Shown: piece by piece, positions 40,467 to 64,000 of the stretch
How the letters are laid out: the number at the start of each line of letters is the position of its first letter
Numbering within the stretch: the stretch's first letter is position 1
NCBI RefSeq assembly: GCF_000003815.2
Contig: NC_049982.1
Span: forward strand, 15,651,704 to 15,715,703
Source of the DNA: Branchiostoma floridae
Lineage: Eukaryota > Chordata > Leptocardii > Amphioxiformes > Branchiostomatidae
Length of the DNA stretch: 64,000 nucleotides
Direction of reading: 5' to 3'
Made by a program: the position numbers and the translations under genes
The notes under the pieces: model-generated
What the model was told of the DNA's origin: nothing
The model's input: only the letters and a program-made list of their open reading frames with translations
Database searches by the model: none

Positions 40467-43400
40467 CTATTCATCATCATAATCATCTGTGAAAGCTTTC
40501 TTGGGTTTCTTCTTCTTGAGCTTAGGAAGTCTGCCTGGTCGCACACCATCATCATAACCGTCTCCTGCAGAAGAAAAGGAAACCATCACTACCTTTAGCT
40601 GTACCTCATTTTATCTTCTACACAGAAGCTACACTACAGAAATGATCGTACATGCAATGTATAGTATGATATTTTTACCAAGTACCTAATGGGAAACTTG
40701 GTTCTATAATTTTTATACTGTATCTGTCATGACTACAACATTTGACCAAAGATGTGGTTTTGAGCAAAGACTTTGTACAAGAGAATTGATCAGATCTGAG
40801 GACGCTATCTCACCTGTAGCTGTTTTTGGTCGAAACCTATAATCATCAATGTCTTCATCCCTTTCTGCTCCCACCCCTGCTGTGCCTGGTCGCTTCATCC
40901 TCTTGGCCAAGTCTTTGGTCAGTTTCTTGGCATCTGCAGTTCCTCCCACTGTAATACCATGTGGATAATTTATCTTGTTATGTTTGAATATATTGAATGA
41001 TTAATCTTGGTTGACTAGCATAGCAATTCAACTTATTTTGTTTCTTTGCAAGGCCACACAAGCTATGGAAGACATACTTTGAAGACCATAAATCTTGTTT
41101 GCACAATATAATTGACATTCTTTGTGAAAGGACATTTCAGAACATATTTCCGACGTAAATGACAGTTCAGACATTTTTTATCAACAGCAATGCACTGACC
41201 TTTTTCCACAGCTTCCTCCACTGCCTCAGTTAGCTGCTTTTTGGACATGTTTCCCATCACAGCTAGCTTGGACAGCAGGTCTTTCTCTCGGTCCTGTGAA
41301 AAACATCCGTATTAGTGTTTTGAACCCTTATACAAACACTCTTCAGAGCAATTACTACCTTAAAGTTGGCAAAAAGGTATGCTTGAAACATGATAGTATC
41401 AATTGAGATGCTGTTTCCCTCCATTACTCAAGGCTACAATATGTCACCTTTCTAAACTTCAAACCTTGCCACAGACAGATTTCCACGTCCCCCCACCACA
41501 CCAGAGTACAAGTAAGTGAGATCCTCCCTCACCTCCAGCTCCCCCCTCATCTGTTCCTCCAGCTCCTGGTTGAGCTGGTCCGTCTGTCGGGTTAGCTCCA
41601 GCTTCATCTCCCGCTCCAGGTCATCTATGGCCGCCTGGTGGCGCCGGTCCATCAACAACTTTGTCAGGGCAGCAGACGCAGACCTGCACATGTTTGTAGA
41701 GACATTAAAAAACCCTATAACTAGTGGTTTGATCTGATTGATGAAGACAGCATTGCATAGACAGTGGTATGCTCTTCTGATGGACAGAAGTAACAACAGT
41801 ACTTTTAAATCTTTGCAGATTTCTATCAACCAAGAAATCAGTAACACATTAACCCTAAATGGCAAATTTACTGCAATGGCAGAAAGAATAACAACATTAT
41901 TGACGAGAGAAGTCCAACTCAAGTCCAACTCACAATGATCCCCTTCTGGCTTCATACTTCAGCTGCTCCTTTTCTTCCTTATCCAGTTTTTCCTCAATTG
42001 CTCTGAAAATGAGGAGCACAGACATGAAGACTATGTAATGGCAACAAGCTTATATTTACATAAGCACATTCTGAAACATAAGAACTAGAAACAAGAATAA
42101 TTCTCATCTTTAATAGCATATCTTTTATAACACTTGTCAAAACTGTCCTAAAAGTTAAAGTTGTCCTGACCTCTGCCTGTTGAGCTGCTTGACCTCCAGT
42201 TTCTCCTGCAGCGCTCTCATCTGCCTCTCCTTGCTGGTCTGCAGCTGCTCGTTAATCAGCTCCACCTCACGGTAGTGGTTCTGTAGGATCCGCTCGGTCT
42301 TCGTGTCTGACACCTGGGAGATGTTTAACAATATGTTAACTTTGTAGATGTACCAGAGTGCAAAGTACCCACTTGCACACTTGCACATTGCAACCACTTT
42401 TTGCTTGGTGCAACTTACTTCTAAACTCAGGTTGCACAGGGCTCTCAGAACTCGATTTTGTTGTCAATTTACTTGGAAGAAATAAATGGACTGAGGCAGC
42501 TCCATTTCATATCAGCCAATCATGTCAGTGATTGCTGATTATGATAGTAAAAGGTTATGATGTATGTATGTATTGTACCTTTTTTTTCAGAAATTAAATA
42601 ATTGTAGGTTTTTTCATTTGTGCAACCTGGCCCAGAAAAGTATTTTGTACACTGTGTACTATGAAACATTTTTTCAAGAGTGCTTCTCTATAGTGTAAAA
42701 AATGTTTTTCCTTTTCTTTTTGTCAATTTGTTGTTTTTTCAATGTCAAAAGCCCTTTGCTAAGCTTTGTTGTGTAAGTGTTGCTGTCCTTGGTGCTGAAT
42801 TAAATGTCTGTTGTACATTTTAGTTGATTAGTCTTTTGAAACTCAACCTGAACAGTAGTACGGTTATTTTAGGAGGCACTTTCAAATCAAATACTAAGTA
42901 CATATCATGAGAGTTTGATATGTAGCCTTTGTCTGCAATAAATAAGACCAGTAGATATGTCTTATGATTGATGAATGAAAAAGAAATGGTTTGAAACCAA
43001 CTGACCCACCTGACCAGACTCAGCCACCTTGTCCACCAGCTGTTCTTGTAGCTCCTTGATGGCCTTCTCCTGACGTCTGATGATGGACTGCCGGCGAGCC
43101 TGCCCCAGCTGGAGTCTGGCAATCACCTTACCCAGCTGTTCATCCTGGGCCTTAACAAGACAAAAACAGGACATGTTCGCATCAAGTAAGACCACTTATC
43201 ATGTTGTACAAAAGGATGATACTGAGATAAATGACTGAGCAGTGCAGAATGCAAAAGGTCCCACTTTTATCCTGTTTCCATTTAGCATACAGAAGAAAGT
43301 TTCTGGTCATACATTAAACAGCTGACAGAATGTTATGATATACCTTGAGTGCCTGGTCCGTCTCCTCTGCTAGCCTCTTCCTGAGCTCAGTGAGGGCCTG

Positions 43401-46400
43401 CTGACGCTCCTCCTCCAGCTGCTGGACCATCTCCTCATATTCCTCCTCCTGGAGAAACAGGAAACAGCAAAATGCCAATCAATAGAACTAGGATATCCTG
43501 AAACACTGACGAATTGTCTGAAATGCAGCAAAACAATATTGTTGGTCTTAATAAAATTCAGTAAACATTACAATTGATGGGCATAGTCTCACCAGCATCT
43601 TTTTCTCATCCTGCTTTGCCTTGGTCTTAGCTTCCAGTTTGGCCCTGCGCTGGGCAAGCTTCTGTTCTAGGCTAAAAGAAAATTGGAAAACATTCATTGT
43701 GTTGTTTATAAAGCCATCACAATATATAATAGTAGACAATTTTTCAAGATTTGCTGCAGCACTATAAAGGAAAGGTATTAAGAAATAAACAGGTTTTTGT
43801 ATGTGGTGCAAAAATAATTCAAAGGATTTAGTAGAATTAGAGCTGTCATGCCGATGCATGCAATACATCAACAATATTCTTGTGTTTAATTGTTTCATTT
43901 GGATAACTTTAAGCCAAATGCTAATCTAAAGGATTCAGGAAAAATACATAATCATGCATAGTCATACAGACACGGAGAATACATAAAGCATTGCTTTGGT
44001 GATTTATCAAGAAGTAATGAACAGGTTTTTATTCAACAAAACATTTGTCATCTTCAAACTCACATCTTCTGTTGCCGAGTACGGCTGATCTGCAGCTGGT
44101 TGTTCACAGCGATCATGTTCTGTTCATGTTCCTTCATTATCTGTTTCCTGGCCCTGAGGTGGAGATAAAGAAAAGTTAGCATGGCAGTTCAATTGTCAAA
44201 ATGTAGCATACCACTTTCTTGTCATAGTTAACTTGGAAGAATGATCGAAAAATACCTTCCTCATTTGGCAAATGTATTCTTACAAAAATATCTATTATAA
44301 AAGGATTGATATGTTTTTAAACAAATCACAATTCTGACTACATATGAAGCAGCAAACTAGTCAACCCCAAATAAATGCTTGTGAAAACAAAGCCCCTCTG
44401 GCAGAGGTAATAACCCTAATAATCCTTACTCCTCTGTGAGTCCTGCCTGGGTGTCCAGTAACATAGTGATGGCCCTCTCCTGCTGGTCGTTCAGCATCTT
44501 CTGCTCTGCCTGGGTTGTAGCACTCTGCTCCTCCATTTTCTGTGAAAATAAACAAAGGCATCTTTACCACTTTATACATGTTCATTTTATCTTAGTAGAC
44601 ACATTTAATTATGGTTGACATTTTCTTTGTACAAATGTGTAAGACCGTTCATTTGATACTTACTCTTCTTCTTTGAGCCAACTTGGCATCCAGCTGTTCT
44701 CGTTGCCTCTCCCTTTCTTCATCCTGACGTTCTGTGAAAATAAAACATGATATACATGTATGATACAGAGGTTGAAGTGTACCAGGATAGACAAGGAGGG
44801 ACGATTGAGGTGTGTTTGATTATTGGCAAAAATCAGTGCACCTTAAAGTTCTTGAAAATTGATGTACAAAAGTCATTGCACTTTAAAGTTCTTGAAAATT
44901 AATGTACAAGACAATATGGTAAATTATCTTTGGGCAAATACCATGTGAAAAGGATGGAGTACATATTAGTTCAGTCTCTCTGAATACAGCAGGGGTATGT
45001 GATACGGATGTGAGAATGTATGGATGCAGATAAATACCCTGGAAGTTCTTCATGTGAATCTGGTGCTTCTTCATGAGTTTGCGGGCTTCCTTCTCCGACA
45101 GCTGTGCCCGTGCCTGCAGGTTCTCGTACAGGGACTGGTCATGTTCCAACAGCAGCTGTCCACGGCTGGTGTCAAGTTGCTGGAACAGAAGTGTAGTATT
45201 TTTAAATCTGTGAAAGGCTACATTGCACGTTTCCAACCCAATGTCTCGAGGGACATAAGAATTTAAAATCTATTGTTTGAATCTCTGATAAACAGTAGGT
45301 ACTTTCGTTGACATTTCTTATATGATTTATATACTTATATACGTAGATATGATTTGAACAAATTTGCAATACAGTACTTCAAGCGTCACTGTGTCACCTG
45401 ATAGAGATCTCCTTTGGTCCCAATAAATGACAGAGTGAAGGTTGGACTTGCAACTTCCTTTTCCATATGAATATCATCCTTTTGCCAAGATGTTCTTAAG
45501 TGGCAGAGGCATAGCAAGGCAAGGCTGCAAATTGAGCACCAAGAAAAGGTATACAACTTGCAGGTACCTACCTGTTTGAGCATGCTCAGTTCTTCAGCCT
45601 CAGTCTCATCCAGCTCCTCTAGAATGTTGAGCCTGCGCTGCTGCTGCTGTATCATCAGGTCATGTTGGGCCTAAGGGTGTCAGATGAAGATATACTGTGT
45701 TAGGTACTACATCGTAATCAAGTCATGTTGGGGTTAAGGGTGTCAGATAAACATGTACATTGATGACAAATGAATAAGGATGGTGACTCAGGTTCTCAAA
45801 TCCAATTCTGTATCAGTATCTATATAGCAAGTAAAGCCACCAGGCTTTGGCAGACAATACCAGCTTTGCAAACAAACGGTGTGGCAGCAGCTGGTTATAT
45901 TACACTGAATGGCTTGTCACACGCAACTTTTTGCACATCTATCTGCAAGTGTTCTTTAAAACCAAAAATATGATCATACTGTACTTGATGATAAGAAAAT
46001 CCAATAAAAAAACAATGAGTTCATGTTATTTAGCCTTGAACCATAAGCATGATGCCAGTAGGCTAGGTCTTTGTATCAAAAGCAGAACAGGAACCATTGG
46101 AAGAGGATTGTACTTGCCTGCTGAGGGAAACTAAGCCATAACTACCTTGACAAAGTCTTTGGGATCAGTCTGGCCTTCTGCAGCTGAGTTGTTAAGGTCC
46201 TCCCTCTCCGTCTCCTCCTTTGCTGCCAGTTTCTGCAGCTTGTGCTGCCTGCGCTGCTGCAGCTTCTCCTTCAGCATGTCCTGCTGAACCTGCAGGTCTG
46301 GCACAGGGATAGAGAGAGACAAAAGTTATGACTATTGCCCAATCAGGATTGACCTATCATTTGACCTTTTAACTATCTATGACACACTATTGACTGAAGT

Positions 46401-49400
46401 AATGGTCTACAAGATCTTAACTTAACAGTCTGCAAGAAAGATCAAACCTGTATGTCAGATTAACTTAATGTGGACCAACCTGCATTGTAGTTCTCCTCAA
46501 CCCTCTGCATGTCAGACTGGTACTGTGCCCAGATACTGTAGGAAAACATACAGGGGGTCATCAAAGGTGTGAAATATCTATTGTAGAAACCAAATTAGTA
46601 TCATTGATACTAATAATGGTCATTTTTCCACATTTCTTATTCTTAAATTTTTGAAACATAAAAACTAGATGATAATGTAATCATGCTTCATGTACATTAT
46701 AAGTGAACTGATGCTATACTACAAGCTATCTTTGACTTAAAAACTTCACAATGAAATCACATGGTATTTTATGCCTAACTGGTCTATTCCTTTTATGATT
46801 TCTGAGAGTCTACCCAAGGAGGTTAAACCTCCTTGGTCTACCTTTCCCCTTTAACAGATGAGTATTCAACAGAAACATTAACATATAAGAATATCAATCA
46901 ATCATCCACTGCCCATGCTGACCTGTCCCTCTGCTTGTCCAGTAGCTTGGTGTCCTGACAGAGTTTGTCCAGAGTGATGTGCTGCTGGTTCATCCTCTCC
47001 TCCACCTCCTCCTCCTCCCTGTTCTGTGCAGAGGTGTGCTCTCCTGCCAGCCTCTGTCTCTTGGCCAGACGTTCTTGTAAAGCCTGTTGGGCAAAGGAAT
47101 ACATCAAGATATACTCTAAATGCATTTTAAATTCATGGCGATTGAATCTGGTGGTAGGGTGAGAATAGAGTGTTTTTGATTCACGATAGTGCTACAGTCA
47201 CATACTGTATAGTAATGGAAACACCAGTATATACACATGTACTGTTAGACAGCTACCTACTATACACTAGGCAAGGGTGCTAAAGATGGATAAAACAGTC
47301 ACTTTCAGCAGTGCTGGCATAATCAACTAGCACGTACTGACCTAAATGTATTGATTCTAGGAGCTATGTATCAATGAATATGTAGTCAATGTTCAATTCA
47401 AAGACCGGGCCTATATTCAATTTGTGCCTTGTAAGTATTTATGGCTCTTCACCATAATAGGCGCCTCCAACACATCATTATATTGCACGAGTACAGTATT
47501 CAAATATTTTGAAGGTCTAAAATAATGCAGCAAGATACAAAGCTAACCCATTTTTCAGAATTCAATCATTGGTCCATATGGAATGGCTTGATTGCTATCA
47601 GAAAGGAAATAATGTGTGTAATTTTTTGTTATACAAAGTAACCTGTTTACTGAAATATAAATACATCTTGTCAGATTTTTTGAATCCGTAAATAATGTTT
47701 TTAACTCACCAGTGACTGTCTGGCAAACTGCTCTCCCATCAGCCTGTCAACTGTTGCCATGTTGTCAACAAACTTGGACATGATTTTCTCCAGCTGTGAG
47801 ATAAACAGTATAACAAAATGATGTTAAATTGTAGAATCCTAAAATATAATGCTAGTTCACCTTTATTTGCGGGGTAACCTTAATTTGTTGTATTCAAGAC
47901 TGGGGTATTTAGGGATATTACGATAATGGATGGTGGTTTCAAACTGCAATACCTAACAAAAAATGCATTTAAAACCACTGTCCATCGACTTGATATCCCT
48001 AAATTACCGGCTTGCAAGTAGAACGGATATAGGTTACCTCGCGGATAATGGTGAACTAGCGTTATATTTTCCATAGAACATGATTACGAAAGTATCCTTG
48101 TAAAGCACACAAAGGTTGTATTGGTACATTATCAACTGTGAACTGAATGTGAACTGTTCCCATACCTCATTCTGTGGTAGTCCAGCAGTACTGAGGTCCT
48201 GTCTCACAGACTCCTGTTGCTCTTTCAATAATGAGTTCTGAGAAGAAAAAACACCTTGTAAGTATCCTGATTTTGAGCATTCTATTAAAGGTGTTTTTTT
48301 TCACCATGTCAATACATGATGTAAATTTTGATAAACAAATAAGCAAGTAAGCAGACTGACCATCCTCTGGACATACTGTGGGTGGAGTTTCTCCAGAGCC
48401 TCCTGCATGGCAACAGGGTCCTTCCGCAGCTTCTCATCTGCCATCACCTCCTCTCCCGCCTCTGCAGCTCAGCTCGGATCCCCTCCTCTCCTGTCTGGAT
48501 GGACTGGTGAGCAAACATGAAAGACTTGTTACAGCATTCAAAGACAATGATAAATTCACCCTTCAGCCCAGTTCATGCTCTCAGTGCCAGGGTCTGACTG
48601 GACCGCCAGCACGAAACATGCAAACCCATAACTGCCAGGTTTTAATGCTACATGCAATGCTGGTTTCTTTTAATTTTTATGCCATTTACATTCATATTCC
48701 CTTAGCCAAGACGAGTATTGTATGAATTGCTATATCATTCTTGCCTTACATTGTACCATGTACAAATATCATGCATTCATTTGAGGCTTACCCCCTATCC
48801 TGGTTATTAACAGGTATGTTTGTGTGGACTTAAACTAGAGACATACTCAAAACAGTAGTGGTGCTGGATGATGAATAATTTTCCTTAGAAGAATACAAAC
48901 AAACACATACCTTTTCATGCTTGGTCAAGATGTTACGATACTGTTTCTCATCAATTTTCTCCTTGAAGAAGAGGCCATTCAGGAAGATTCGTAAGATCTG
49001 CAGGAATGACTGTAAGGAAAAATACACACTGACAGGTTATATCTGAGAAAGTTGATGCGACACATCTGAATGGCAACAAGATATAAGTGAAAGCTAGTGC
49101 CATAACAACGCAACAATCAGCACCATGGAAACAATCTTTCCAGATTACAATGACAAATTGGCTGTGCATAGCCCTGCTTTTACTTTAGGATCAAACTCTT
49201 TCTTAAAAAGGGCAAAGGGTTCAACTCACATTATTCTTCTGTTCTCTCAGTTCTTTCTCCAGCTGGACTGTGGCTCTGAAGTCCTGGAAACGGAGCTCGT
49301 TGTCTATATCCTCACTGAGAAACAAATCACATAAAATAAAACATAACCTTTTATACACACATTTGTAGTATATTGACATGACAAGAATAGAATTTCCCAA

Positions 49401-50771
49401 GTGCTGTGCTGATCAAAACAAGCGCACAGACTATTTTTTATCAAAATGGGTACATCATCATCATAACCCTTCCTTGCCTCTCAACAACTTATGCACAGAT
49501 TTACTAATCGAGGCAAAAATGTCTTAATTCGATTAACGTTATAGATGTAGACACAGATTACTAAAAGAAACAGGCAACTTAACATATTACCAAAAGGGAT
49601 TTATCATATCATACACAGATTGGCTAATAGCTAGGTCAAGGTGCCTTTAGCTTGGCTGTATTACCTCTTAGGCTTTATGAGAGCCACCAGCAGGCTATCT
49701 GAGTACAGGGGATCGTCCATGTCATGCAGGCCCGAGTCTCTGCTGATGGTGCTGGGACCCAGCCTGGCTTTCTTCTCATCATCAGCTGGTTGCTAGAATG
49801 AGTCATTGGGTTAGATATTACCCTATGCCTTTAGTTGGATATTTCATATTTCATCTCATTTGTCCTTTGCTATTTTCTAATTTTGAATCTCTTTAGAAAA
49901 TGCTTGTACAATGTTTATAGAGAGTTCAGTCAGAACCTCACCCTTTGTCAACTAAAAGAGTCTTTAAAACTGTTCTATTTGCTATAATTTCCCTCCAAAA
50001 AATGCCAGTTATGTGAGTGGTCAAGTTCTCATCCATTGATATACTTACCGAAGAAGCATTAGATAGCTGGTCGGGATCTTTTTGTTTCTTCTTCTGTGAA
50101 TAACATAAAAACGCAAACTAGTAATCAAAAGTGAACCTTAACTTCTTGCTCTCATGTTCAGTGTAAAAGTAAAAACACATGAATGTTCAGTTAAAATGTC
50201 TTGTGTGATGCAAAAATTTATAAGTGCAATATGCAGGACGATTCTTTTCTATTAGCCATTGACAACTAACAAAAGTGTATACCTAAATGAAATGAAAAGT
50301 ATACTGAAGTGATGTGATGATTACTTTTCCTGCCATTGGAGAAATACTACGGCAGTTCTTATGATATTGTTCTATTTACGTTAGTATTACCTCCTTCCGT
50401 TCTTCCTCTTCTTCTTCATCATCTGAAGAATCTGGCTCTACCACATTCTCCATCAGTAAAATTTCACTATCACTGTCTTTTGCCTGTAAAAAGATTCAAA
50501 TTGTGTTGGTTATGTGTTAATCATCAAGCCTGGGGAAAACGTTAAATTGGTCAGAGTGAAGTTTTACTCAGCTTGTTGAATCAAACAGAAGCAGAAGTGA
50601 ACGTACCCTCGAATTGAGAATGTCAAACAGGCAGCACTTAGCCACGACGACAGCGATAAGAACGCCGAGAAAGAACCCCAGGATCGAGCCTAGAGCCACC
50701 AGCCCGCCGTCTACGTTCTCGGTGAAACCCCTGTAGTACTCCAGGGTCACAAGCACACACGGCTCCGTCAT
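40467..50771 (-). CDS. EVC: Ellis-van Creveld protein EVC (ciliary Hedgehog regulator)
   Basis: Ciliary membrane protein that with EVC2 transmits Smoothened signals at the cilium base. 26 minus-strand exons: 50771-50607, 50483-50391, 50093-50049, 49792-49665, 49314-49230, 49009-48911, 48503-48361, 48237-48166, 47793-47710, 47083-46923, 46535-46480, 46297-46146, 45670-45572, 45179-45038, 44731-44664, 44539-44430, 44153-44064, 43671-43593, 43448-43344, 43150-43010, 42313-42171, 42002-41934, 41683-41533, 41293-41200, 40948-40814 and 40564-40467; about 935 residues (human 992). Short lumenal N-terminus, one TM segment (about 23-44), acidic segment, then long coiled coils with LAQRRAK repeats; the C-terminus is Lys-rich, then acidic. 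Exon 7 is 143 nt where phase needs 144 (see findings). I assign EVC rather than EVC2 by the short ectodomain, TM position and divergent partner. Confidence 0.88.
44836..44910. repeat. 40-bp tandem duplication in an EVC intron
   Basis: The unit TGCAC(C/T)TTAAAGTTCTTG plus AAAATT(G/A)ATGTACAA starts at 44836 and again at 44876. Near-identical. Confidence 0.85.
45659..45755. repeat. Short duplication that copied the 3' splice site of EVC exon 13
   Basis: GTCATGTTGGG...TAAGGGTGTCAGAT occurs at 45659-45686 and, slightly altered, at 45722-45749 (63-bp offset). The first copy contains the real acceptor of the exon 45670-45572 (minus strand). In the second the AG has become AA, so it is a dead decoy. 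Confidence 0.75.
46814..46836. repeat. Near-perfect 23-base palindrome
   Basis: 11-base arms CCAAGGAGGTT and AACCTCCTTGG around one base, in an EVC intron. The same CAAGGAGGTT core forms a hairpin at 2501-2530 and recurs at ~33046 and ~33095, so it is a dispersed repeat motif in this genome. Confidence 0.8.
47847..48064. mobile_element. TA-flanked MITE, family 1, copy in EVC intron
   Basis: A ~215-base, largely palindromic element. Ends ATGCTAGTTCACC and GGTGAACTAGCGT are inverted repeats with TA outside each. Inner inverted matches include GGTAACCT and TAGGGATAT. A second copy of the same family is in EVC2 (53866-54087). Confidence 0.8.
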
Positions 50772-51836
50772 GTTGGTCTTCCCAAGATTTCCTTTCTACA
50801 AATGCGATAAGCCGGATTTTTAGATGACCTAGACCCTGACGTTTTCTTGCTTGTACAGGGAATGGAATTATTCTGGTCCAGGCATTGTTAATAAAACAGC
50901 AGCTGGCTATTCTTTCCCCTGTTCGTGTACACCAAAGGATTACATGTTATTATGGTGACCTCACGTCAGACACCTGTAGTCACCTGACGTAGTCGGTAAC
51001 GACCATTTAACGCCGGGGTACATGGGTTACAATTGTAGTAACTATTTTCTTTAAATCAAGGAAACAAGACCGAGTTTCGTTGGTGTTGTGATTAATGATA
51101 CTTTTCTTTTGAACTAGTTTCATAATTGATACCCAATGACACCATCATTTGTGTGACATACTGAAGTATATGTAACGTGCGCCCCTTTGTGGTGGTATCG
51201 CCTAATGGTACCATTTACCCCTGTTGTACCTGGTAGCCATAGCGATGGGGCGGTTTCAAAATACCCCATGGAGCCACGCCTCAAATCCATTCATATTATT
51301 GGGAGGTCTTGAAACTGTAGGTCAATCTGCGATTACGGGAAGGAAAAATGTTTTTCCTCTGTTTAACCATGTTGTGGAAGAATATTGCCACAACGCCTGA
51401 TAAGAACTCAATTCAAATTCTTCTGTGACCGAGAAAGAGGACAAGTGCAAGTGTGGACGAAACTACAGGATTCTTGACTACATGGGACTCAGGAAAGTGC
51501 AGATATCCGTAACAGGTGTTCAAGTTGGTGCCAAGGTGTTCCTGTCACCTGCGATGCGCAATACCTGTCACATGGAAGGACACACCTGTATGAGAGAACC
51601 TGTTCATGTCGGCATGTAACCGTTGGTCTGAGATTGTCCCGTGTGGAGCTTTTTACATGCAAGTTTAAAATAGTCTTACAGTGACCAAACAGTAACTCTT
51701 CTAGTTGTTTGCTCAATTCCTATGGTTTCTCAGCAACTTGACTTATCAGTTGGGCTTTATTGTAAAACTGTCTTTCAGTTAGTTTTACCTGTTTTAGGCT
51801 AAGTGCAGTTTTATTGACTAAGTTACTTTAAGGATC
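50772..51836. promoter_or_regulatory. Bidirectional promoter region of EVC and EVC2
   Basis: 1065 bases between the two start codons. It contains an inverted pair of CRE/ATF-like cores, ACGTCA (50963-50968) and TGACGT (50985-50990), closest to EVC. A weak RFX X-box-like half site, GTAGCC followed by ATAGCGATGG, lies near 51234-51249. RFX sites would be expected for ciliary genes, but this match is poor. No TATA box is evident. Confidence 0.5.
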
Positions 51837-54800
51837 ATGGCAGTAAAGATAAGAGGTCAGCAACTAAGCACTATTGTGCTATGCCTAGCAGCATGTGTTT
51901 TCCAATGTTTGTGGTTCCAGGCGTCATCTCAAAATGTTGCATTAGCTTTAGATGTACAAACGCAGTACACTTTTGATAACCATCCCGGCGTGTATCGTCT
52001 TGGAAGTGCCAACCTCACCACAACAGTGTCCATTCCTGCTGGAGGGGCTGATTCAAAGTTGGAACTCACATTGCCTCATCTGAACTACACATATCGTAAA
52101 TGTGACCCACTCTCAGTCAATGTTACGTCTTTCAATGGGACCCATAATATAACAGAGGAGCAGCTAACTACAAACTGTTACGACACATACGGTATCACCC
52201 TGTATGTGGCCATGGAAGGAAATGACAGTGTAATTACCTATGGCAATGATTTGTCGACAAGTGCCACAACAAAAATTACTGCAAGCGCTGATGGGGAGAA
52301 GCTTAACTTTGATTTTGGTAATGTCGCAAATGGAGCTGCAACTTCTCAGGACATCACAATAGCCACACCTTTCACTGTTCTTCCTATTAATAATGTTCAA
52401 GACATTCTGACGTTTGAAGCTGCTCCAACCACAAATGGGACGCTTCAGGCTGTAAATACGTCCTTTATTGTGATTGGTCCACAACTTGAGATTATTTTCA
52501 CGGAACTGAACAATTCTGGACCAATAGAAGCTGGTGATGTAGTCCATCTACAAGTTGTTTTGCAACATACTGGCCTATCTACAGAAAATGCAACAAACTT
52601 GCAGGTAAGATTTATTTTTGTCATATATTTTATACTCTACTTAACATAGGCCAAGTGCCATTCTGTTTTGATCCTAATGTAGACTCCCTAGAAGAGTGAT
52701 ACCAATGGTGATATGTCAATCACTTGATATTGGCACATCTGTGAAGGATAGGAAATTTCAGGAATTCTTGGATTCAGTAGAGACTTGGTCCTAAATATCA
52801 TTGGCTAATGTTTCCATATTTTATGCCCACAGTTAGGAGGTAGCATTTATCCAGGAGGAACATCAGCAGCTACGATTGTCACATCCTCAGTCTCCATATC
52901 CAGTGGCCCTTACAACAACTCTTTCACCACTGACGTGCTGAACTCCGGAGGCAACTTAGACTTTGGCCTGCTGCCAGTCGGCGAGACTGTTACCATCCTG
53001 TTGTGGTTCGAAGCACTTGATGGGCTTTTGATCAATAGAGATGTGCAACTGTCTTTACGACTTAGATATGTGGACCTGGAAGGTAATTAGTTTTACCTCT
53101 AAAAAACTCTGCTTTAATTTCAGGAGCTTGAATGCTCCACTGCCCAAATTTGAAATATATATATGCTCCATCGTCCAAATTTGAAAGATGTACCCACTTT
53201 GATGTGCCGTTGTGAGACACAACCAAACTAAACTTAAACATTATAATTAATTAATAATTTTCACAAGTGGATTCCAAGGCCACACATTTGTAGCAACCCA
53301 TCTCCTGTTTATAAAGTCATCTTAACTGTAAGGCAATTTCAGTTGCATTGCTTATAACTTGTAAGACCTAAAAATCAATGGTGGGATATCTTCTTTTTGA
53401 AGGCAATTTTTATACAGATGATCTATTCCAAAGGACATACCAGACATAATTCAATTAGGTCATTTATCATGTTCACTCATGCAACAAAGATTATTTGTGA
53501 TCATGTTCCAAAAGGAAGAGAAGGCAAATTTTGAAAATGAAGTAGATACAATTTTGGGTTCCTTTATTTCCTTTCAGGTCACAATCTTGAGGCCTGGGGG
53601 ACAGAATCAAAGGCAACAAGAAGTTTGACTTTCAACGACCAGACAAAGTTCACTTTGAATGTGGAGAACAACGTTGGGGTCGACCAAGTTGTGGACGTGA
53701 ATACAGCCTTCCTGATGCCACATGGGACACTTGCAGCAAGTTTGGAACTGGGTGAGTACCGAATATTTATCATTGATTGAATGCCTGGTGTATGATTGAC
53801 TATATCAGTGTATGATTGTCTGGACAATTGTTGATCTCAAGGGCCTTTAGTTTTCAGCTTCTGTGTAACGCTGGTTCACCTTTATTCGTGGGGTAACCTT
53901 TATCTGTTGTATCTAACACCAAGGTATTTCGGGATATCAAGTCGACTAACGGTGGTCTCAAACTGCATTATATTGAGAAAAAAAAAGGAATTTGAAACCA
54001 CCGTTCATTTACGTGATATCCCTAAATATCTTGTTTTTAGGTACAACGGATATAGGTTACCCCACGAATAAAGGTGAACTAGCGTTAGCTTTCTGGCCAA
54101 GGCAATTTACTAAATATGCACAAACAGCACAAACATGGTGCTCCCTCTAGCCATAATCTACTTTTCCTGAATGCACAGCTGGCATATGGGGACCTTCAGT
54201 CTATATAATTAGTGGTGAGCTGTTGTCCTAGCAATGGCACATAAACGCAGGTAAACACTGCTGACAAGGTTAAATTGCTTGCATAGAAACTGACAGACAG
54301 ACACTAATGAGTGACCCTGGGGTGGGCTTACAGCAAAGAGGATTTTTTCAGAAAAAAGGCAACTTAATCTGACGGTAGTGTAAGACAAGCATAATACATT
54401 TGAAAAATCGTTACCTTCGCCAAGAAGATAATGTTTTTGGTGCAGTTTGAATGTGTGGGTGTTTGTGGATAGCAAAATGTAAATCAGCAAACAGAAAAAG
54501 TACTACTGAGTCTTCTTTACAAGGAAAGACTGTAACGTGCATATCCTTTGAATGATTGGCATGTTGATCTCCCTCTTGCTGAACAGGTGTATTGGATAAG
54601 ACATTTCTGCCATTAAGGGTTTGAATTATTGATTATGTTGTGCAAGCTTTGGTCACTGAACCAGCTCTGACAACATAACTCATTTCTCAGGCAAAATGAA
54701 AAATCAAAGAGACCCCTTGTATCTCATCACAAGTAACTCATGTCTCATTTTGGATATGTTGATAGATTTGTATGTTGATGACAAAACCAGAGTGTTGTAG

Positions 54801-57800
54801 CCTGTGTTTACACAATCTCTCACTGGCTGGGGTTAATGACCCCCTCTTCTAGGGCAGCGGCAATTGTAGGGCTGGCCGCTAGGAGGAGGATTTTAATCCG
54901 GCTATAAAGTGTTATAACAGAATAATTAACCTTGTAGGTAACCTTAACTGATTACAAAGCAAGTTTTTTTGCCTGACATAGCCACCAAATATGAAAATAA
55001 GGGTGTTACAATTTGAATAATTCCAACATGTCAAATTTAATTTCCAGAGTTCCAGTCTGATGCCCTTGGTCCTGATAACATATTGCTAGTACGAGGAGAC
55101 CTCCCACAAAGTGAGGAGGTGAATTTCGCCAGTGATGTTGCACCAGTAGATCTTCTGTCACAGAACAGAAGACGTCGCAAGAGACAGATCTTCATCCCTG
55201 CAACTGTCCCCATCATCAGGACCTGGAATGTAGGTGACATCGTCTACCCGAGCAGTGTGAATGGCAGGGGAGTGGACACATCTGTATCCATGCTGGTAGG
55301 TGATCATGTACAATGTTGGAACAGACAGGTTCTTGTAGTGTGCCATAGGTATCAGTTAAAGGCCGTATACCAGCTGAATCTGTGTTTTTACTTTCAAATT
55401 GTTGTTCTGATTCCAATACAAAAAAACTTTGTATTTCTTGCAGGTGAGCTACCTGGTCAACCTGGACCCTACACAGGTGCAGAATGGAGTACCATTCAGC
55501 CTCACAGCCACACTGAGAGCAGCAGGTACTGCCATTCCTCTAGGAACGAGAACATTTGTCTTGGGCCTTCCAGAGCTACAGATGGATCAAACAGTACAGG
55601 TATGCATGGAATGTGCAACAAGATCAATATCAGGACATTATTGTCATTAATGTCATAGCTGATGAGAAAATGTTTTTTACTATGTGTTTTATTTGATCAA
55701 TAGTTATAATTTATTAGACTAAGTATAATAAGATAAGATTAATGAAACTGACCCGTAAAGTAAATGTAATTGTCCTGTTTATTTTTGTTTGGCACAGTCT
55801 TTTTCTTCTTCCTTGGGCCAATACTCTTCCTTAGTTTCTTTTGTGACTGATGATTTGAAATACCTTTTTGTTAACTTATAGATTGCAGATGACACCACAA
55901 ACCCAGACGAGGTACGCATCAATGTGACAGTTAGCCACACTGCCCAGTCATCAGCAGATGCCTTTGATGTCACCATTTTCTGCAATGCCACAGGCCTGAC
56001 CATCTTCAACTACAGGAAGATGATCCCCATATTTGTTTCACCGGAGGTCACAGTGCAAGGGTCAGAGATCACAGTCACCAGGACTCATCTTCCATGTAAA
56101 TTGATTGTTTAAAAGTTATTGATATGATATTAAACATACAAAATGAAATATATTCAGGGTGCTAAAGAACACAGCTGGTTCACCTTTCTCATCATCTCCT
56201 GGATCTTCTCTCTAAAAATATGTCAATTTGTTACAGATGAACATTTGACCATTTAGTCTAATTCATTAGCTTGAAAAGCTCTGCCAAAAATGTGGTTCTC
56301 ATCTACATGTATCATTTAACTGTAATCCCTTACAAGTGGTGGCCATTTGTGTTTAATATGTAATTTTCAGCAAGATAAGGTTATTGACCTCTTGAATATT
56401 TTGTTGATTGATTGATTGATTAGTTGATGGTATTTCAAACCTGTTTCAGTGGGGGAGGAACTGCTCCTGTCATTCCAAGCTGAGATGGAATGTAAAGAGC
56501 GAGAGTGTGCAGAGAGCAGTCCTAACCTCACCATCCCTGCTAATGTCACCTATCGGAGTGTGGCAGTACAGCAGACAGCCAACAGTACACAGGTAAACTT
56601 TTGTCATTAGGGTTTACAGGGATCTTTCAGCATCTATTATTTACATGCATATAACTAATATTAGTTACTTTACTGTTACTTGCAAGGTAAAATAGAGTAA
56701 GGGAAAGTACATTTATAGAATCCCAACATCTACGTTTGTTTTTAGTTCCAGGGAATAGACTATGGACCTCTCACAGACAGTGTTTGCCTTGGGTTCAACC
56801 TTGTAGAGCTCACCAGTGTAAGTTTCCAATCTCTTTTATCATTGTCCTTTTTGCCCTTGGCACAACAGTTTGTATTTCAGCATGTGTACCTAGCATTACA
56901 CATACAAACTGTGCTTCTTACCTCTAGCTCACTTAACTGCCTATAGACCAGTATCCTGAAGGGCGAATATACCGGCAATATTGATGCAGACAGACCGAGA
57001 ATGTCTGAATGCTCTTTAAAGTTTTTGCATCTTCATGCTTTTATTTTCCCTCTCTACATTTTGACAGAGGTAGGATCGGCCATGGGATTGGTCTATTGCA
57101 ATTTGATTCGAAAAACGTTTGGATGTAGGTGTGGCTTGCATCTGAATATCCTGCAGTGTTGTGTTGTTCCCTTCTTACATATTTGTCCTGCTCATTGTTC
57201 CAGTTGTTCCGTAACTATGGTTACATTGGCCTTGCCCTTATTGTGTTCCTGCTGGTTGGCATCGTTGTTGGCCTCCTGTGCTGCTTCCTACTGGGCAGGA
57301 CAAGGGGCATGCAAGTCCGCCCACTGGTAACTATGAAAACTTTTTTACAGTATGTGCATGTGCATGTGCATGTGGGCATTATAATGATTGTACTACTTAT
57401 TTATCATACATTTAGTGTGGAAAAACATATCCACCCATAAGGTCTACCAATGTTATTTTTCCCATAACAATCCCATCCTGTTAGGAAGTCAGTCATTTTC
57501 ATAGCTGCTGGTATCAAAAGTGTAGTCTGCTTATTTCTACAGTTGCAGCAACAACAGTAATAGCAATTGTGACAATAATGCAAATGATATCTTTATATGT
57601 CTTATATTGACTTTGGTCTTAATCAAGCATCATAACCATTCCTGCTTGCAGCGTGGAAGGAGCAAGAAGAAGAAAGGTGGCCTGTTCTCTGGGCTGAAGA
57701 ACAGACTGAAGGGTCTTGGTTCCTGGTTCGGAGAGCTGAACTTTGCTTCCATCCTCACCTTCAGAGACATTAGTAAGATGTTCAGGTGGCTGGACAAGTG

Positions 57801-60800
57801 AGTACCACACCCACACATCAACGTTTCTTTTCAAAGGGGGAAAAGAAATCAGGGGGAAATTCTGCAATCAACCACTCCACTAAGTGCCTTCTGATAATGT
57901 TTTTTTTTAACTAATAAAAGTGAATTGCTTTAGTTGATTAGCACATATAAAACATTAGAAGGTGTAAATGTTTCTCACTTAATCCATTGTTGCTTGACAT
58001 TCTTATATGACTCTGCCATAGTACAGGCTCAAAGAGTGTATCATTGCCAATAGTAACCCCTTGATGATTTGTGTTCTTTTGTTATCTACTCTAGTCTAGA
58101 TATCAAGTCATCCATCGACCTTGACATAAAGCTGCAAGGTCATCGTCTTCAGCTGATGATTAATTCCATCAACATACAACTGCAGAAACTCAGGTAGGAA
58201 GCTGAAATCATTGTTTGTGAGAAAAAGTAATAGGAATATCTTAATCCAATTGCAATAGGAAGAAAAAGTGTGTTTAACATTTACAGCTTCAAGAATAATA
58301 TAACTGAGTTCAGACAGTGGCTCAGGGTGCTTCAAAGACCTTTTGTAGCATGTTGGTCAGACAAAGAAACAGATTTGCTGACCACTGCACTATATATGAC
58401 ATACAATATTGTTGCCCATAGTCTAATAACATAAAAATCCCTAGTCAAAGCTGATTCAAGTTCCATATACCTTTCTACAGGCACAAAGGTGAGATCTCCA
58501 GACCCATCCTTGACAGGGTCCAGGACAAGTTCAATAAGGCATGGCGAGCCCTCTGCAGACGTCTGGGTGAGGAGTATCAGAAAGCATTGAGCAGGCTTCA
58601 TAAGAGGCTGGCAGCTAAGAACAAGGTAAGCAGTGTCAACAAAATTGCAGAAGGAGGCAAAGGGAGAGATGTATAGGAGATGTATATCTTTACAGACTCC
58701 TGACTAATAGCCAGTGTTTCAGCACCTTGGAGAGGAATGGAATCCATACACAAAATGCAAACATATACAGTTGTGTCACATGGTTTTCCTGTCATGAGGA
58801 ACTTGATATCCAGGTTGTTTCATTGATCAATTAATACATCCATTGATATTATGTCTTCCTACCTATAAGGACAACGTAGACAGCCTCCATAAGAAGCATG
58901 AGGAAGAGAGAAAGCAGCTGATTGACAGGACGACCAACACCCCTGAGAAGGAACGTCGTGAGCTGGTGAAACTGCTGGACCAGCAGCACCAGGTGGAGAC
59001 AGAGGAGCTCTCATACAGGCTACAGCTGGAGCAGGCAGAGGAGGAGGAGAAAATCAGGAAGGTGGGACAGATAGGAAGATCTGAAGAAGGGACATTATAA
59101 AACTTTTATATGTGTGTTCTCATTCATATTGTCAAGGATGGATTTTAGTCATTCAGAACACAAAAACACATTTGCTAAAGCATACTTAACATCAAAGCAT
59201 TGTACAAAATAGCAGTGTAATGAGGTAATGAATTTCATATTTCAAAATATACTTCATTTCCTGTTGCATCTCATCCCCTTTAGGAGTTTGAGTTGAAGAA
59301 GCGTGTCGGTCTGAAGGAGCTGCAGCACAACCTCCTGAAGGATCTGGCGGAGCAGGCAGAGCTGTCAGAGGAGGAGGCTGCACGGATCATGAGGGAACAT
59401 AAGGAGAACCAGGCAACCATCAACAGGCTGATGGACGAGGAGATGTCACGGCAAAGGATGCTGCTGGAGGAGAAGCTGGCACAGAGGAGAGCCATGGCAA
59501 AGGCTAAGGTAGGTAACAACAGTACAGTCACAGGGATGAGGACTTCTCTTACTTAGCCTATTGGGGTCAAAACAATAAGTACAAATCATACTGCTGAAGA
59601 AAACAAGGAGTAAAAGCACCAACAGATAGAATATTGGTGGTAGTCTTTTGGTACACAAGGAGAGCCAAGAGCTAAGGTCGATGTATATGTGGTTATACAG
59701 TTTTTTTTATTAGTCCCCTCTTAGTTATATTGATGTAAACAGGGTTTAAAAGCTTTGACCAATCAAAGGTTGGTTAAGTTTAAGTTGTAACATCTTTGAA
59801 ACATAGGGATGGCCATGGTAAATCTTAAAGAATGCACAAATGCAGGGACCTGATGCAACATGAACCAACAGTAACAACAAGTGTATTGAATTGAAGCATT
59901 AGTAACTGTTATGATATGTATTTATCATTTGATATCAAGCTATGCTACTGAGTTTTGAGTTAAAACATTTTGTGTGACCTTGTAACCATTTGCTTGTGCA
60001 GGAGCATCAGGAAGACCATAACAAAAAGGTGCTGAACACTCTGGCCACACAGCAGGCAGGCATTGTGCAGGAGATGCGAGAGTAAGTCATTCTATACTCT
60101 CAGAATCTTAAACTGTGAAAATGCACTTTTTAATCAATGGAATAAAATGGTGGGATAATGTATATTTTCAATTGCTGGGTCTATGAATCTTTATATGAAT
60201 TAACTCTGGTCTCTGCCTACTCAAGAATAATCCCAGTACTATATTACCAAGTTACCAAATAGCAGCTGTCATTATCTTTTGCTCTCAGAGATGGGAAGTT
60301 GTCAGCTGAGCAGGAGCAAATGTTCAAAGAGAGGATTCGCAGAGAGATGTTGGCGGCCAGGGAAAGGCACGATAAGTCACGGGAGTCACAAGAAGCAGCA
60401 CTCCAGAAGCGTCTTGCTGAGCTTAAGAAGAAGCGGCTGGCTGAGAAGGAGGCAGAGCAGCGGCAAGAAGTGGATGAGTTTGAGAAGAAGCAGCAGGAGA
60501 TGCAGAGTGAGGGGGAGGGAGGTTAGTGCAGTAGTTGTCAACATGCACAAAGTTAATAGCAAACAGTAGATTTTCAGATATCAGGCAATAAAAGTCAGAA
60601 CAAATTTGCTTCCATACCAACTTCTTAAAACATTTTTTGTTCTAAGCACATTGTGAATATATGTTCCAGATGCTGAGGACTACATTGATGCACGTCACCA
60701 GCTGATGTCTCGCCATGTCACAGAGATGAACAACCTTGAGATTTCATTGGACAAGGATGCCTCGGACCAGCTGGACAGGCTGACCTTTGACCTGACAAAG

Positions 60801-63800
60801 ATGGCCCAGGATGAAATTGTGCTGTTCAAGGACAAGCTTTGTGCTGAACTTGGAAGTGCTGGTAAAATGAATTTACATACATTGTTTTGATTTCATATAA
60901 ACTTTCTTTTTTTTTTTGGTTGGAGGAAAGAATGAAACCACCATATGTATTGATCTGCACTTCAGAAAAAGATATATATGCACATATCCAATATTATTCA
61001 GGCCTCTCTCTGTTTACTTTTCTACAAACACTTTGGTGCATGGACAAGTCCACATCAGGAAATTTTTGCCAAAGAACATTGCATCATATTGATAAAATGT
61101 GTATATGAAAAAAGATGCAATGTCTGCAAAGCAGCGAAAAAGATTTTATAAAAGAAATTACTGACTTAAAGTGCTCTTATCTCTGTAAAACGTCAGGACT
61201 GAAAGAGAAGCAGAAGAATGAGATTCTTGCCCAACATCAGCGAGAACTGGAGCAGCTTAATGAAGTCCACGAGGAGCAGAAGAGGAAGCAGACACGGGAG
61301 CTGGAGCGTCGTCTGGAGGAGAAGAGAGCGGAGCTGGCCAAGAGGGCAGAGCTGGAGAGGCAGGAGCAGGAGAAGATACGGGCCAGGGAGGAGAAAATTG
61401 TCGGGTTAGTAAGCTTAGGTTGGTCAGACCTACAGAACTCTGCTTTATGCTGATTATGACACTGCATCCTGTTGAGAGCATGACAAAAGCTCTGGATTAT
61501 ATGGTTGGAAGTTAAAAAACAGCCTGCCTGCTGGACTTCTGAGCACTGGTATGCACGCTACTGCTGCATGCTCTTTGTAGAAAATGTCACAAGTATGCAA
61601 AAAAGAATTGCATACTTCTTAAAAACAGCATCCGTACATTATCTGGACCAATCATGATTGATTTGAAGTTGTTGCTATTTTCAGACACTTGATCAATGCA
61701 CAGACAGCCATCTCTGAGGAGGACAAGGAGAAGATTCTGAGGGAACATGAGAAAAATGTGGCAACACTTGAGAACAACCTGACCTTGAACAAGCTCCACC
61801 AGCGTCGCATGTTGGAGGAGAAGCTTGCCCAGAGGAGAGCCAAAGCCATGGAGAAACTGCAGAAGAAACAAATCAAGCAGGAAAAGGTGCATGTTTGTTT
61901 CTCCAGTCATATCCCAACTCCAAACGTTCACTACAACAATAAATTCAGGCAGAAAGTCAGCATATGTCAGAAGTTTGTATGCTCAGTCAGATGACTGCAG
62001 CTTTTGATGATGTCTTCTATTTGGATGGTTCTCTTCCAATTTTTATCTTCATTGGCAAAGACAGTCATGGTCATAGTCAATACGTAGAGCTTGCTTGTTG
62101 TTGGTTTCAAGTAATTCAAACTGAAGTATGACAATTCATGCAAACATCTGATCTTGGACTCCACAGAAGCGCCAGCGTTACCGTGGCAGTGACTCGGAGG
62201 GAGAGCTGGACGATGTGAGCCTGCTGAAGCAGCAGCTGCAGGAGAGGATCAGCCTGCTGTCGGAGGAGAGTCAGGCCAGGATGGATGACGACATAGAAAC
62301 TGTGAGCACCATATTTACATGTCCTACTGATCAGTTAGTTCTACTGTCCTTGTTACTATCTTCGTACTATCCACGCTATCTATTCTATGCTGAATACTGT
62401 ATATCTACCTTGTCCTTGGTGCTGAATACTTAACACAATATCAACTCAGTCCATATTGCCGAATACTAAATATCTACCCTGTCCTTGGTGCTTAATACTA
62501 TTCATACCTTAGTATGTCCTTAGTACTGAATCTACTTTGCCCTTGGTGCCAAATGATATGCAAAGTCTCTACCCTACCCTCTTCATTGCTGAATACTGTA
62601 CAAACTGTCTACTCTGTCCTTGGTGCTGAATTCTATGTGCACTTACTAACGTTGCTCCTGGTACTGACTATTATTGATACTAGACAAACTGCCCTTAACG
62701 CTGAATAGCACTCACACTATTTCTGGCTGCTAAATTCCCTGCCCATGGTGCTAAATACCCTTAACATGGATCACACACTCTCCTTATGGCTGTCCACACC
62801 AACACCCCTCTAGCACTTGTTTGGCCAATATGTTCCCCCCTAACACCAGCCCCCCTGCTCCCCAGATCCGTGTGGAGATGCTACAGGAGCGAGCGCAGGC
62901 CCTGAAGGACCAGGAGGAGCGGCTGGGGGGGCTCCTGTCATCACTGCAGATGGAGAGGGCTCGAGAGGTCAGTGCTTACTGTGCATATTGCATATGGTAC
63001 AAATAGAGCATATATGATTTGGTGCTTTCTGGGATCACAGTTTCATGTTGCCAATGTCACCAAATCTGAGGTCTTAGTATTGGGGTTTAATACTTATTAT
63101 ATAGTATCAGTTCTAAGGTTCAATAACGAGGGCGAGGTATTGAAAGTTGATGCAGAGAGCCAATTTAGGCTAATGTGGAGAGTCCAATGATTTAAAGCAA
63201 TAATGAAATTCCGTAATAGAATGCAATGCAACACAATATATTACATGTTGGAGGACTCATGCCGTTCTTTTGTTCAGCTTGCCACCATAGAGGAGCAGAG
63301 AGAAGCGCTGAACAAGCTGACCACCAACCTCGTTGACGAGCTGAGTGACAAGGGGGTGCTGACTGACCCTGAGTGTAAAAAAGTCATTGAGCAGCACAAA
63401 AAGGTACAGACCAACTTCTGGCTGTTGAATCATAATATATCATTTGTTGATCGAAAATAAATGATCATGTTGATAAGAGTTAGACATGCAGGTAATAAGA
63501 TTAGCAAGGTAATAGTTACTAAAGCAACAGTTTATTGGATAATATATACATAGAATGGTGTAAAATTTAGGTTAATCCCTTGTCTTCAAATGGTTAACCA
63601 GTAATGAGGGCAAGCATTAAAGTTGACAAATAAAATCCTTAATTGTTTAGGATGTGGACAAACTTGAGAAGAAGCTGCACCACCAGCGCCAGCGGCAGGA
63701 GGAGGAGCTGAAGAAGAAGCTGACAGAGAAGATGATGCAGCGGGAGAAGTCCATGCTCCAGCTGCATGAGGAGAGGCTGAGGGAGATCCACAGTCAGGAG

Positions 63801-63874
63801 GCCAGCAAGACTGCTGCAAGATTCAAGATGGCTGCCATGAAGAACAAGTACATGATGGAGAGCGAAAAGCAACG
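51837..63874 (+). CDS. EVC2: EVC2 (limbin), 3' end beyond window
   Basis: Partner of EVC in ciliary Hedgehog signalling. 23 exons seen: 51837-52604, 52833-53082, 53578-53751, 55048-55295, 55444-55599, 55882-56095, 56450-56592, 56746-56817, 57204-57326, 57652-57797, 58095-58193, 58481-58625, 58870-59061, 59284-59508, 60002-60081, 60289-60521, 60670-60861, 61197-61404, 61685-61886, 62167-62301, 62866-62967, 63278-63403 and 63651-63874. That is at least 1485 residues (human 1308). Signal peptide (about 1-31); large ectodomain of beta-rich, repeat-like segments with many N-glycosylation sequons; an RRRRKR basic site (438-443); TM segment (about 682-706); then charged coiled coils with repeated EEKLAQRRA units to the window end. 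All introns are GT-AG with matching phases. Head to head with EVC, as in human. Confidence 0.9.
53866..54087. mobile_element. TA-flanked MITE, family 1, copy in EVC2 intron
   Basis: Same family as 47847-48064. Ends ACGCTGGTTCACC and GGTGAACTAGCGT are inverted, with TA at both outer sides. The interior shares GGGATATCAAGTCGA and AACGGATATAGGTTACC with the other copy. About 222 bases, no coding. Confidence 0.82.
54088..55047. other. EVC2 intron 3, rest
   Basis: Nothing coding or repetitive recognised between the MITE and exon 4. Confidence 0.5.
59650..59682 (+). pseudogene. Decayed copy of the end of EVC2 exon 14
   Basis: An intron segment reading GGTACACAAGGAGAGCCAAG then AGCTAAGGT resembles the end of exon 14, where GGCACAGAGGAGAGCCATGG leads to GGCTAAGG|T (about 59478-59509). 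It looks like a relic of a duplicated LAQRRA repeat unit. The match is short, so chance is not excluded. Confidence 0.35.
62330..62790. repeat. Degenerate array of a CTTGGTGCTGAATACT motif in EVC2 intron 20
   Basis: About ten imperfect occurrences of (TGTC)CTTGGTGCTGAATACT spaced roughly 30-60 bases fill most of the intron; examples begin near 62413, 62484, 62541, 62618 and 62745. A single similar motif (TGTCCTTGGTGCTGAATTA) sits in an EVC intron at about 42784. It appears to be an old, decayed minisatellite. Confidence 0.6.
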
Positions 63875-64000
63875 GTAAGGACATAATATCATTGTTGTCT
63901 GACATATGATAATAATGGCCAATGATTCTTCCATTTTCTTCATCTGAAAAGCAAGAACTTTTGACAGTGCAGCTTAATGATGATATCTAAACACTGAGGT
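63875..64000. other. EVC2 intron running off the window
   Basis: A GTAAGG donor follows the last exon at 63875. No further exon is visible before the window ends, so the EVC2 C-terminus is missing. Confidence 0.8.

Follow-up and report, generated by a model that had tools for sequence, protein, structure and literature searches.

EVC and EVC2 were described as products of an ancient duplication by Blair et al. 2011 (BMC Biol 9:14; PMC3052239). In that paper, the second iteration of a PSI-BLAST search revealed about 550 amino acids (aa) of EVC/EVC2 similarity (expectation value [E] 6e-14), and the homologous blocks were given as EVC 339-889 and EVC2 469-1018. Orthologues were reported from amphioxus, urchin, snail, and sea anemone. 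The two genes lay head to head in the first three of these and in vertebrates, whereas the sea anemone assembly did not show this layout. The same paper covered the binding of tail pieces and membrane topology, as well as the ciliary location and Hedgehog role of the proteins in mouse. Here, we analyzed the EVC and EVC2 genes in a 64,000-nucleotide stretch of the Branchiostoma floridae genome (contig NC_049982.1, positions 15,651,704 to 15,715,703), which we refer to as the window. The results indicated that EVC and EVC2 are almost certainly ancient paralogues whose tails carry five units of about 50 residues in the same order.

This locus resembled the pair of Blair et al. 2011 (PMC3052239), in which an ancient duplication, a block of about 550 residues after the membrane span, head-to-head genes, and amphioxus itself were all named. 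Our alignment was longer than the published block and began at EVC residue 201 and ended at residue 846. In addition, the available portions of the paper do not describe internal repeat units, and the word "intron" is absent from the main text. A literature search yielded no paper describing introns common to EVC and EVC2 or units within the two proteins, with most subscription papers lying outside that search. An earlier reading of the window (the sequence-only reading) had proposed common ancestry; the ancestry stood up to alignments, profiles, and controls, but it has been in print since 2011, as Blair et al. show. The details that may be newer are the way the repeats are laid out, the lack of matching introns, and a candidate third relative.

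The phrase "nonhomologous genes" persists in 29 papers that mention EVC2, with a single occurrence in each of the 20 listed. This is older wording, probably from the title of a cited paper, and it hides the fact that the disease complex is a paralogue pair. Presumably, PANTHER PTHR16795 and InterPro IPR026501 ("Limbin/Ellis-van Creveld protein") already group EVC with EVC2.

Similarity between the EVC and EVC2 tails

We compared the tails of the proteins encoded by hand-built gene models (Table 1). In a Smith-Waterman alignment, EVC 201-846 aligned in order with EVC2 848-1510, giving 631 aligned pairs with 161 identities. The score of 646 was compared with a score of 240 for the reversed sequence and a best score of 355 among five types of shuffles, each run 400 times; none of the 2000 shuffles reached 646. 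Composition-corrected BLASTP aligned EVC 250-777 with EVC2 896-1449 over 564 columns at 25% identity (154 bits, E 7e-42). Similarly, phmmer searches at a PDB-sized search space connected the two tails with E values of 1.5e-29 and 2.1e-33, and the reversed copies were unlisted at E 1000. The similarity between the tails was significant and extended beyond 500 residues, as is expected of members of one family.

Real coiled coils behaved differently. MukB, SbcC, and nine frames from myosin loci of the same genome scored 120 to 150 against either tail, although these controls were 357-950 aa long and the shorter ones were an uneven match for tails of 670 and 800 residues. That range leaves out the longest frame of locus L013, which is not its myosin frame (scores of 24-27), and at several further myosin loci the longest frame takes in flanking translation. 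When the tails were searched against 177,635 PDB sequences at E 10, no sequence was listed for EVC and one was listed for EVC2 (E 0.3). We also searched the genome (513 Mb, 431 contigs) for exon-by-exon matches. With the EVC tail, for which 47 candidates were scored, the only matches outside EVC with E values below 1 were EVC2 exon 18 (5.7e-7) and EVC2 exon 13 (1.1e-4); the matches that followed had E values of 5.1 and 5.4.

These controls bear on the idea that the similarity is convergent, with two heptad tails rich in E, K, R, and Q sharing a motif through composition bias. BLASTP without composition correction did produce alignments that were off register and scored 50 to 125 bits, indicating that composition inflates the scores, and a profile of nine units (five from EVC2 and four from EVC) matched a ParB chain in the PDB at E 0.0041. 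However, the reversed, heptad-preserving, real coiled-coil, and genome-wide EVC controls all separated cleanly from the EVC/EVC2 match, and we consider convergence extremely improbable. The shuffled, reversed, and real coiled-coil controls also bore out the proposal in the sequence-only reading that the ordered motifs go beyond coiled-coil bias. Taken together, the sequence comparisons strongly support common ancestry of EVC and EVC2. Direct alignment in this species allows the 2011 conclusion to be verified easily, and it is plausible that the signal has been better kept in this lineage, as had been suggested, because one plain BLASTP search suffices here.

The five-unit array

Five units were located in each tail, as shown in Table 1. 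The units started at aa 266, 345, 486, 563, and 705 in EVC and at aa 913, 992, 1131, 1208, and 1373 in EVC2; the corresponding spacings were 79/141/77/142 and 79/139/77/165. A hidden Markov model (HMM) built from the five EVC2 units recovered all five EVC units with 17.2-43.1 bits each and a total of 83.5 bits. The HMM built from the five EVC units recovered all five EVC2 units with 5.4-41.1 bits and a total of 79.7 bits. When each target was subjected to 1000 heptad-preserving shuffles, the best totals were -28.3 and 4.4 bits, respectively, and the best single matches were 10.7 and 8.5 bits. Taken alone, EVC2 unit 2 was not above chance, because its 5.4 bits are below the best single shuffle match of 8.5 bits. 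The EVC2-unit HMM also found a marginal sixth stretch in EVC (aa 788-821, 3.3 bits), and the EVC-unit HMM found a short extra stretch in EVC2 (aa 1073-1097, 6.2 bits).

Table 1. Positions of the gene models, the intergenic gap, and the tail units in the window
Feature	Position	Strand	Remarks
EVC gene model	50771 -> 40467	-	26 exons, 933 aa; hand-built
Gap between EVC and EVC2 start codons	50772..51836		1065 bases, head to head; GC content 0.42, CpG observed/expected 0.62
EVC2 gene model	51837..64000, then beyond the window as far as window-equivalent 65278	+	Hand-built with 10 kb of flank
EVC unit 1 (aa 264-308)	47054..48186	-	EVC2-unit HMM, 22.2 bits; absent from the sequence-only reading
EVC unit 2 (aa 342-398), diverged	46230..46954	-	17.2 bits; absent from the sequence-only reading
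EVC unit 3 (aa 483-533)	44528..45110	-	EVC2-unit HMM, 24.0 bits
EVC unit 4 (aa 560-611)	43626..44449	-	EVC2-unit HMM, 43.1 bits
EVC unit 5 (aa 701-750)	42176..43021	-	32.5 bits; beyond the span of the sequence-only reading
EVC2 unit 1 (aa 909-960)	59350..59505	+	EVC-unit HMM, 41.1 bits; AlphaFold2 model
EVC2 unit 2 (aa 990-1040), diverged	60293..60445	+	5.4 bits; placed via the full alignment; absent from the sequence-only reading
EVC2 unit 3 (aa 1128-1176)	60855..61336	+	23.6 bits; absent from the sequence-only reading
EVC2 unit 4 (aa 1205-1256)	61701..61856	+	EVC-unit HMM, 35.5 bits
EVC2 unit 5 (aa 1371-1420)	63353..63749	+	EVC-unit HMM, 15.2 bits

Half of these units had been picked out before. 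The earlier positions agreed with ours to within one base: LSEEEAARIM (EVC2 aa 913) at 59362, ISEEDKEKIL (EVC2 aa 1208) at 61710, the diverged LTDPECKKVI (EVC2 aa 1373) at 63359 and resuming at 63651, LSEKEARKLM (EVC aa 486) at 45101, and LTEEARKQIM (EVC aa 563) in exons 16-18. The EVC2 exons were correctly positioned but are numbered one lower in the present model (13, 18, and 21-22). The units starting at EVC aa 266, 345, and 705 and at EVC2 aa 992 and 1131 had been missed. A sixth unit, U0, was tried at EVC aa 199 and EVC2 aa 847 and was dropped because random windows had a higher mean score (32.6) than its 24.

When the tails were aligned in full, the five units of EVC lay opposite the five units of EVC2. 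The in-order pairing had the best total of the 120 possible pairings of five units with five; with U0 counted, 2 of 720 pairings reached the in-order score. The linkers between units were then aligned by themselves, each against 1000 heptad shuffles. Two were clearly related to their EVC2 counterparts, namely EVC 612-700 (score of 131, shuffle maximum of 79, reached by none of the 1000) and EVC 399-482 (score of 67, reached by one). The linker at EVC 534-559 was marginal, with 38 of 1000 shuffles reaching its score.

Several observations ran counter to the view of two colinear paralogous tails. EVC unit 2 scored 71 with EVC2 unit 4 and 30 with EVC2 unit 2, and in plain pairwise scoring its match to EVC2 unit 2 was no better than random windows. 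EVC unit 3 scored 95 with EVC2 unit 1 and 80 with EVC2 unit 3, and EVC2 unit 1 scored 119 with EVC unit 4 and 103 with EVC unit 1. Same-numbered units therefore pair best as a set, not each unit singly. The linkers at EVC 309-341 and 751-846 did not rise above shuffles, as 879 and 232 of 1000, respectively, reached their scores. The genome search with the EVC2 tail ranked a locus on C1 (E 0.043) above EVC exon 21 (E 1.5), and a C12 locus followed (E 2.85). In the case of Pfam, hmmscan at thresholds up to E 10 gave EVC no match except TMIE (E 1.5), whereas EVC2 matched PF12297 EVC2_like over aa 723-1017 (73.4 bits, E 2.2e-20; cut-off of 25 bits). EVC2_like and the TMIE match were also the only Pfam matches obtained in the search for named repeat families.

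The linkers are also relevant to whether the units spread among coiled-coil genes by exon shuffling rather than through copying of an entire tail. The EVC/EVC2 unit recurs at a different spacing in a third gene, located on C1 and described below, and two of the five linkers were not above shuffles, as exon shuffling would allow. On the other hand, three of the five linkers were above most or all shuffles, strongly so for EVC 612-700, the order and spacing of the units match between EVC and EVC2, and the places where exon borders cut the units do not correspond between the two genes. We regard exon shuffling as very unlikely. Because unit order and spacing match, it is simplest to suppose that the array predates the gene duplication, and most likely it had already arisen by internal duplication in the single ancestral gene. 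Such an array would serve as a map for placing Ellis-van Creveld (EvC) mutations and for designing binding tests.

An AlphaFold2 model of the EVC2 unit 1 exon contained a helix at residues 2-24 and, after a break of four residues, a second helix of 46 residues (29-74) beginning at LSEEE, with a mean predicted local distance difference test score (pLDDT) of 88. LSEEE is thus predicted to act as a helix start in the one unit modelled. A fold search of the PDB with this model returned 26 matches, none of them meaningful (best E 3.1). A search for phage proteins gave a single chance-level match (E 3), which was not used.

Introns and the origin of the pair

EVC has a tail homologous to that of EVC2 and lies head to head with EVC2. 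Its orthology rests on position and architecture because hmmscan gave no EVC family. By reading, EVC becomes hydrophobic at about aa 23; this stretch would form a single membrane span near the start, possibly an N-terminal signal anchor, and is followed by a coiled-coil tail. All 25 EVC introns carry GT and AG, with poor scores at the exon 7 acceptor and the exon 11 donor. The EVC2 model comprises 24 exons and 1561 aa, with an uncertain last exon, and its product reads as a signal peptide followed by a large ectodomain, a membrane span starting near aa 657, and a coiled-coil tail. The gap between the two start codons is presumed to be a bidirectional promoter.

The aligned region contains 18 EVC introns and 12 EVC2 introns. 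None of them coincided within one residue, a further point against the view of two colinear paralogous tails and one against the pair having been copied together with its introns. One same-phase pair lay within two residues, which is the chance level (random placement mean of 0.71), and three other gap settings gave one, one, and no near-matching pairs. The introns of this near-matching pair are both in phase 0 and are located at EVC aa 825 (window 41533) and EVC2 aa 1491 (window-equivalent 64918). Each is directly followed by a short C-terminal segment, and the two segments, LLSKLAVMGNMSKKQL and FISGLVKTGRFEREEL, look alike, although the wider linker there was not above shuffles.

It had been suggested that the pair arose by inverted duplication. 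If a gene that already had introns underwent simple inverted duplication in tandem, this would fit the head-to-head layout seen here and, according to Blair et al. 2011 (PMC3052239), in vertebrates, urchin, and snail. However, the layout was not found in the sea anemone assembly in that paper, and the introns lend no support to the copying of an intron-bearing gene because intron sharing was at the chance level. Such copying is still compatible with unmatched introns, given the age of the duplication and the uncertainty of the alignment. We therefore hold this origin as possible and tentative, and the mechanism as unproven.

Alternatively, one copy may have passed through an RNA intermediate or lost its introns early, and gained new ones later, with the genes becoming neighbours through the insertion site or a rearrangement. 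A long alignment with few gaps and no shared introns is what this origin would leave. Set against it, a chance landing head to head beside the parent gene is improbable, in a duplication this old, turnover of introns could equally have removed those once shared, and coiled-coil misalignment could hide some intron matches. We consider this second origin unlikely.

Whatever the route, an ancestral self-associating, coiled-coil membrane protein was most likely duplicated to give two tails that bind each other. The two-gene complex would then support Hedgehog signalling at the cilium base, in line with the binding and location published for mouse (Blair et al. 2011). The EVC and EVC2 tails may pair in register. 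The shortest strongly interacting pieces in that paper, Evc 463-1005 and Evc2 250-671, overlap only partly, and little, in register, which weakens the case for strict in-register pairing. The two genes probably came to lie head to head at the duplication or not long afterwards, and this order is presumably kept for joint expression.

A candidate third gene and other features

The locus on C1, a contig other than that of the window (about 32477-32520 kb; L039:5007-5438 and L039-L043), appears to hold a gene whose long coiled-coil tail bears the EVC/EVC2 unit and is preceded by many Cys-rich frames and a membrane-span frame. The exons of this gene encode the unit several times, for example as LTEEEINRIMANHERELG and, over two joined frames, as LTEEEMAA-LLAAHEQELEDL. 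A Cys-rich frame upstream had a sub-threshold match to Ephrin_rec_like (E 0.0018). A Cementoin match at the repetitive start of the membrane-span frame (E 9.5e-5, 22.4 bits) was below the cut-off of 27 and was not used, nor were other weak Pfam matches of these frames that fell below their cut-offs.

We assembled a rough 872-aa sequence of the C1 tail, in which the splice ends are uncertain. This sequence scored 403 against the EVC2 tail, compared with 257 for the reversed sequence and 367 for the best of 400 block permutations. Against the EVC tail, the score was 307, with a reversed score of 254 and one of 400 block permutations reaching 307. The unit profiles gave 34.9 and 32.1 bits on the C1 tail and three clear units. 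These units were spaced by 340-350 residues, not by 77-142, so the C1 tail is not colinear with those of EVC and EVC2. The best BLASTP match of the C1 tail had an E value of 1.6e-5, and phmmer at PDB size listed neither the EVC tail nor the EVC2 tail at E 1000. In a genome search with the C1 tail (52 candidates scored), the sole match outside itself at E 10 was EVC2 exon 13 (E 0.049). The C1 gene and EVC2 were therefore reciprocal best genome matches outside themselves (E 0.043 and 0.049), which is a suggestive but weak sign of kinship.

Because the C1 gene has the unit too, the unit alone is no proof of EVC/EVC2 ancestry. It is quite possible, if short of probable, that there is an older animal family of single-span membrane proteins with arrays of a helical unit of about 50 residues as their cytoplasmic tails, in which the C1 member has a long Cys-rich, ephrin-receptor-like ectodomain and the EVC/EVC2 split predates most introns. 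The lack of intron matches and this additional gene with the unit offer small, testable openings on the origin of the family.

Some further features of EVC2 and its surroundings were observed. The ectodomain is about 650 aa long here, compared with about 208 residues before the mouse membrane span (Blair et al. 2011, PMC3052239). Within it, RRRRKRQ at aa 438-444 (window 55048-55295) resembles a furin cleavage site by reading. On the 3' side of EVC2, two similar short frames, LKRLKKKKHLPPL...EPLGGVDS and KRLKKPKEPRPDPLGGSES, were found in flank L001 at 4274-4393 and 5448-5543 (window-equivalent 66274 and 67448); they are possibly duplicated or alternative last exons. Approximately 5 kb downstream of EVC2, the same flank contains a long open frame (8362-9411) that is reverse-transcriptase-like by reading and partly masked.

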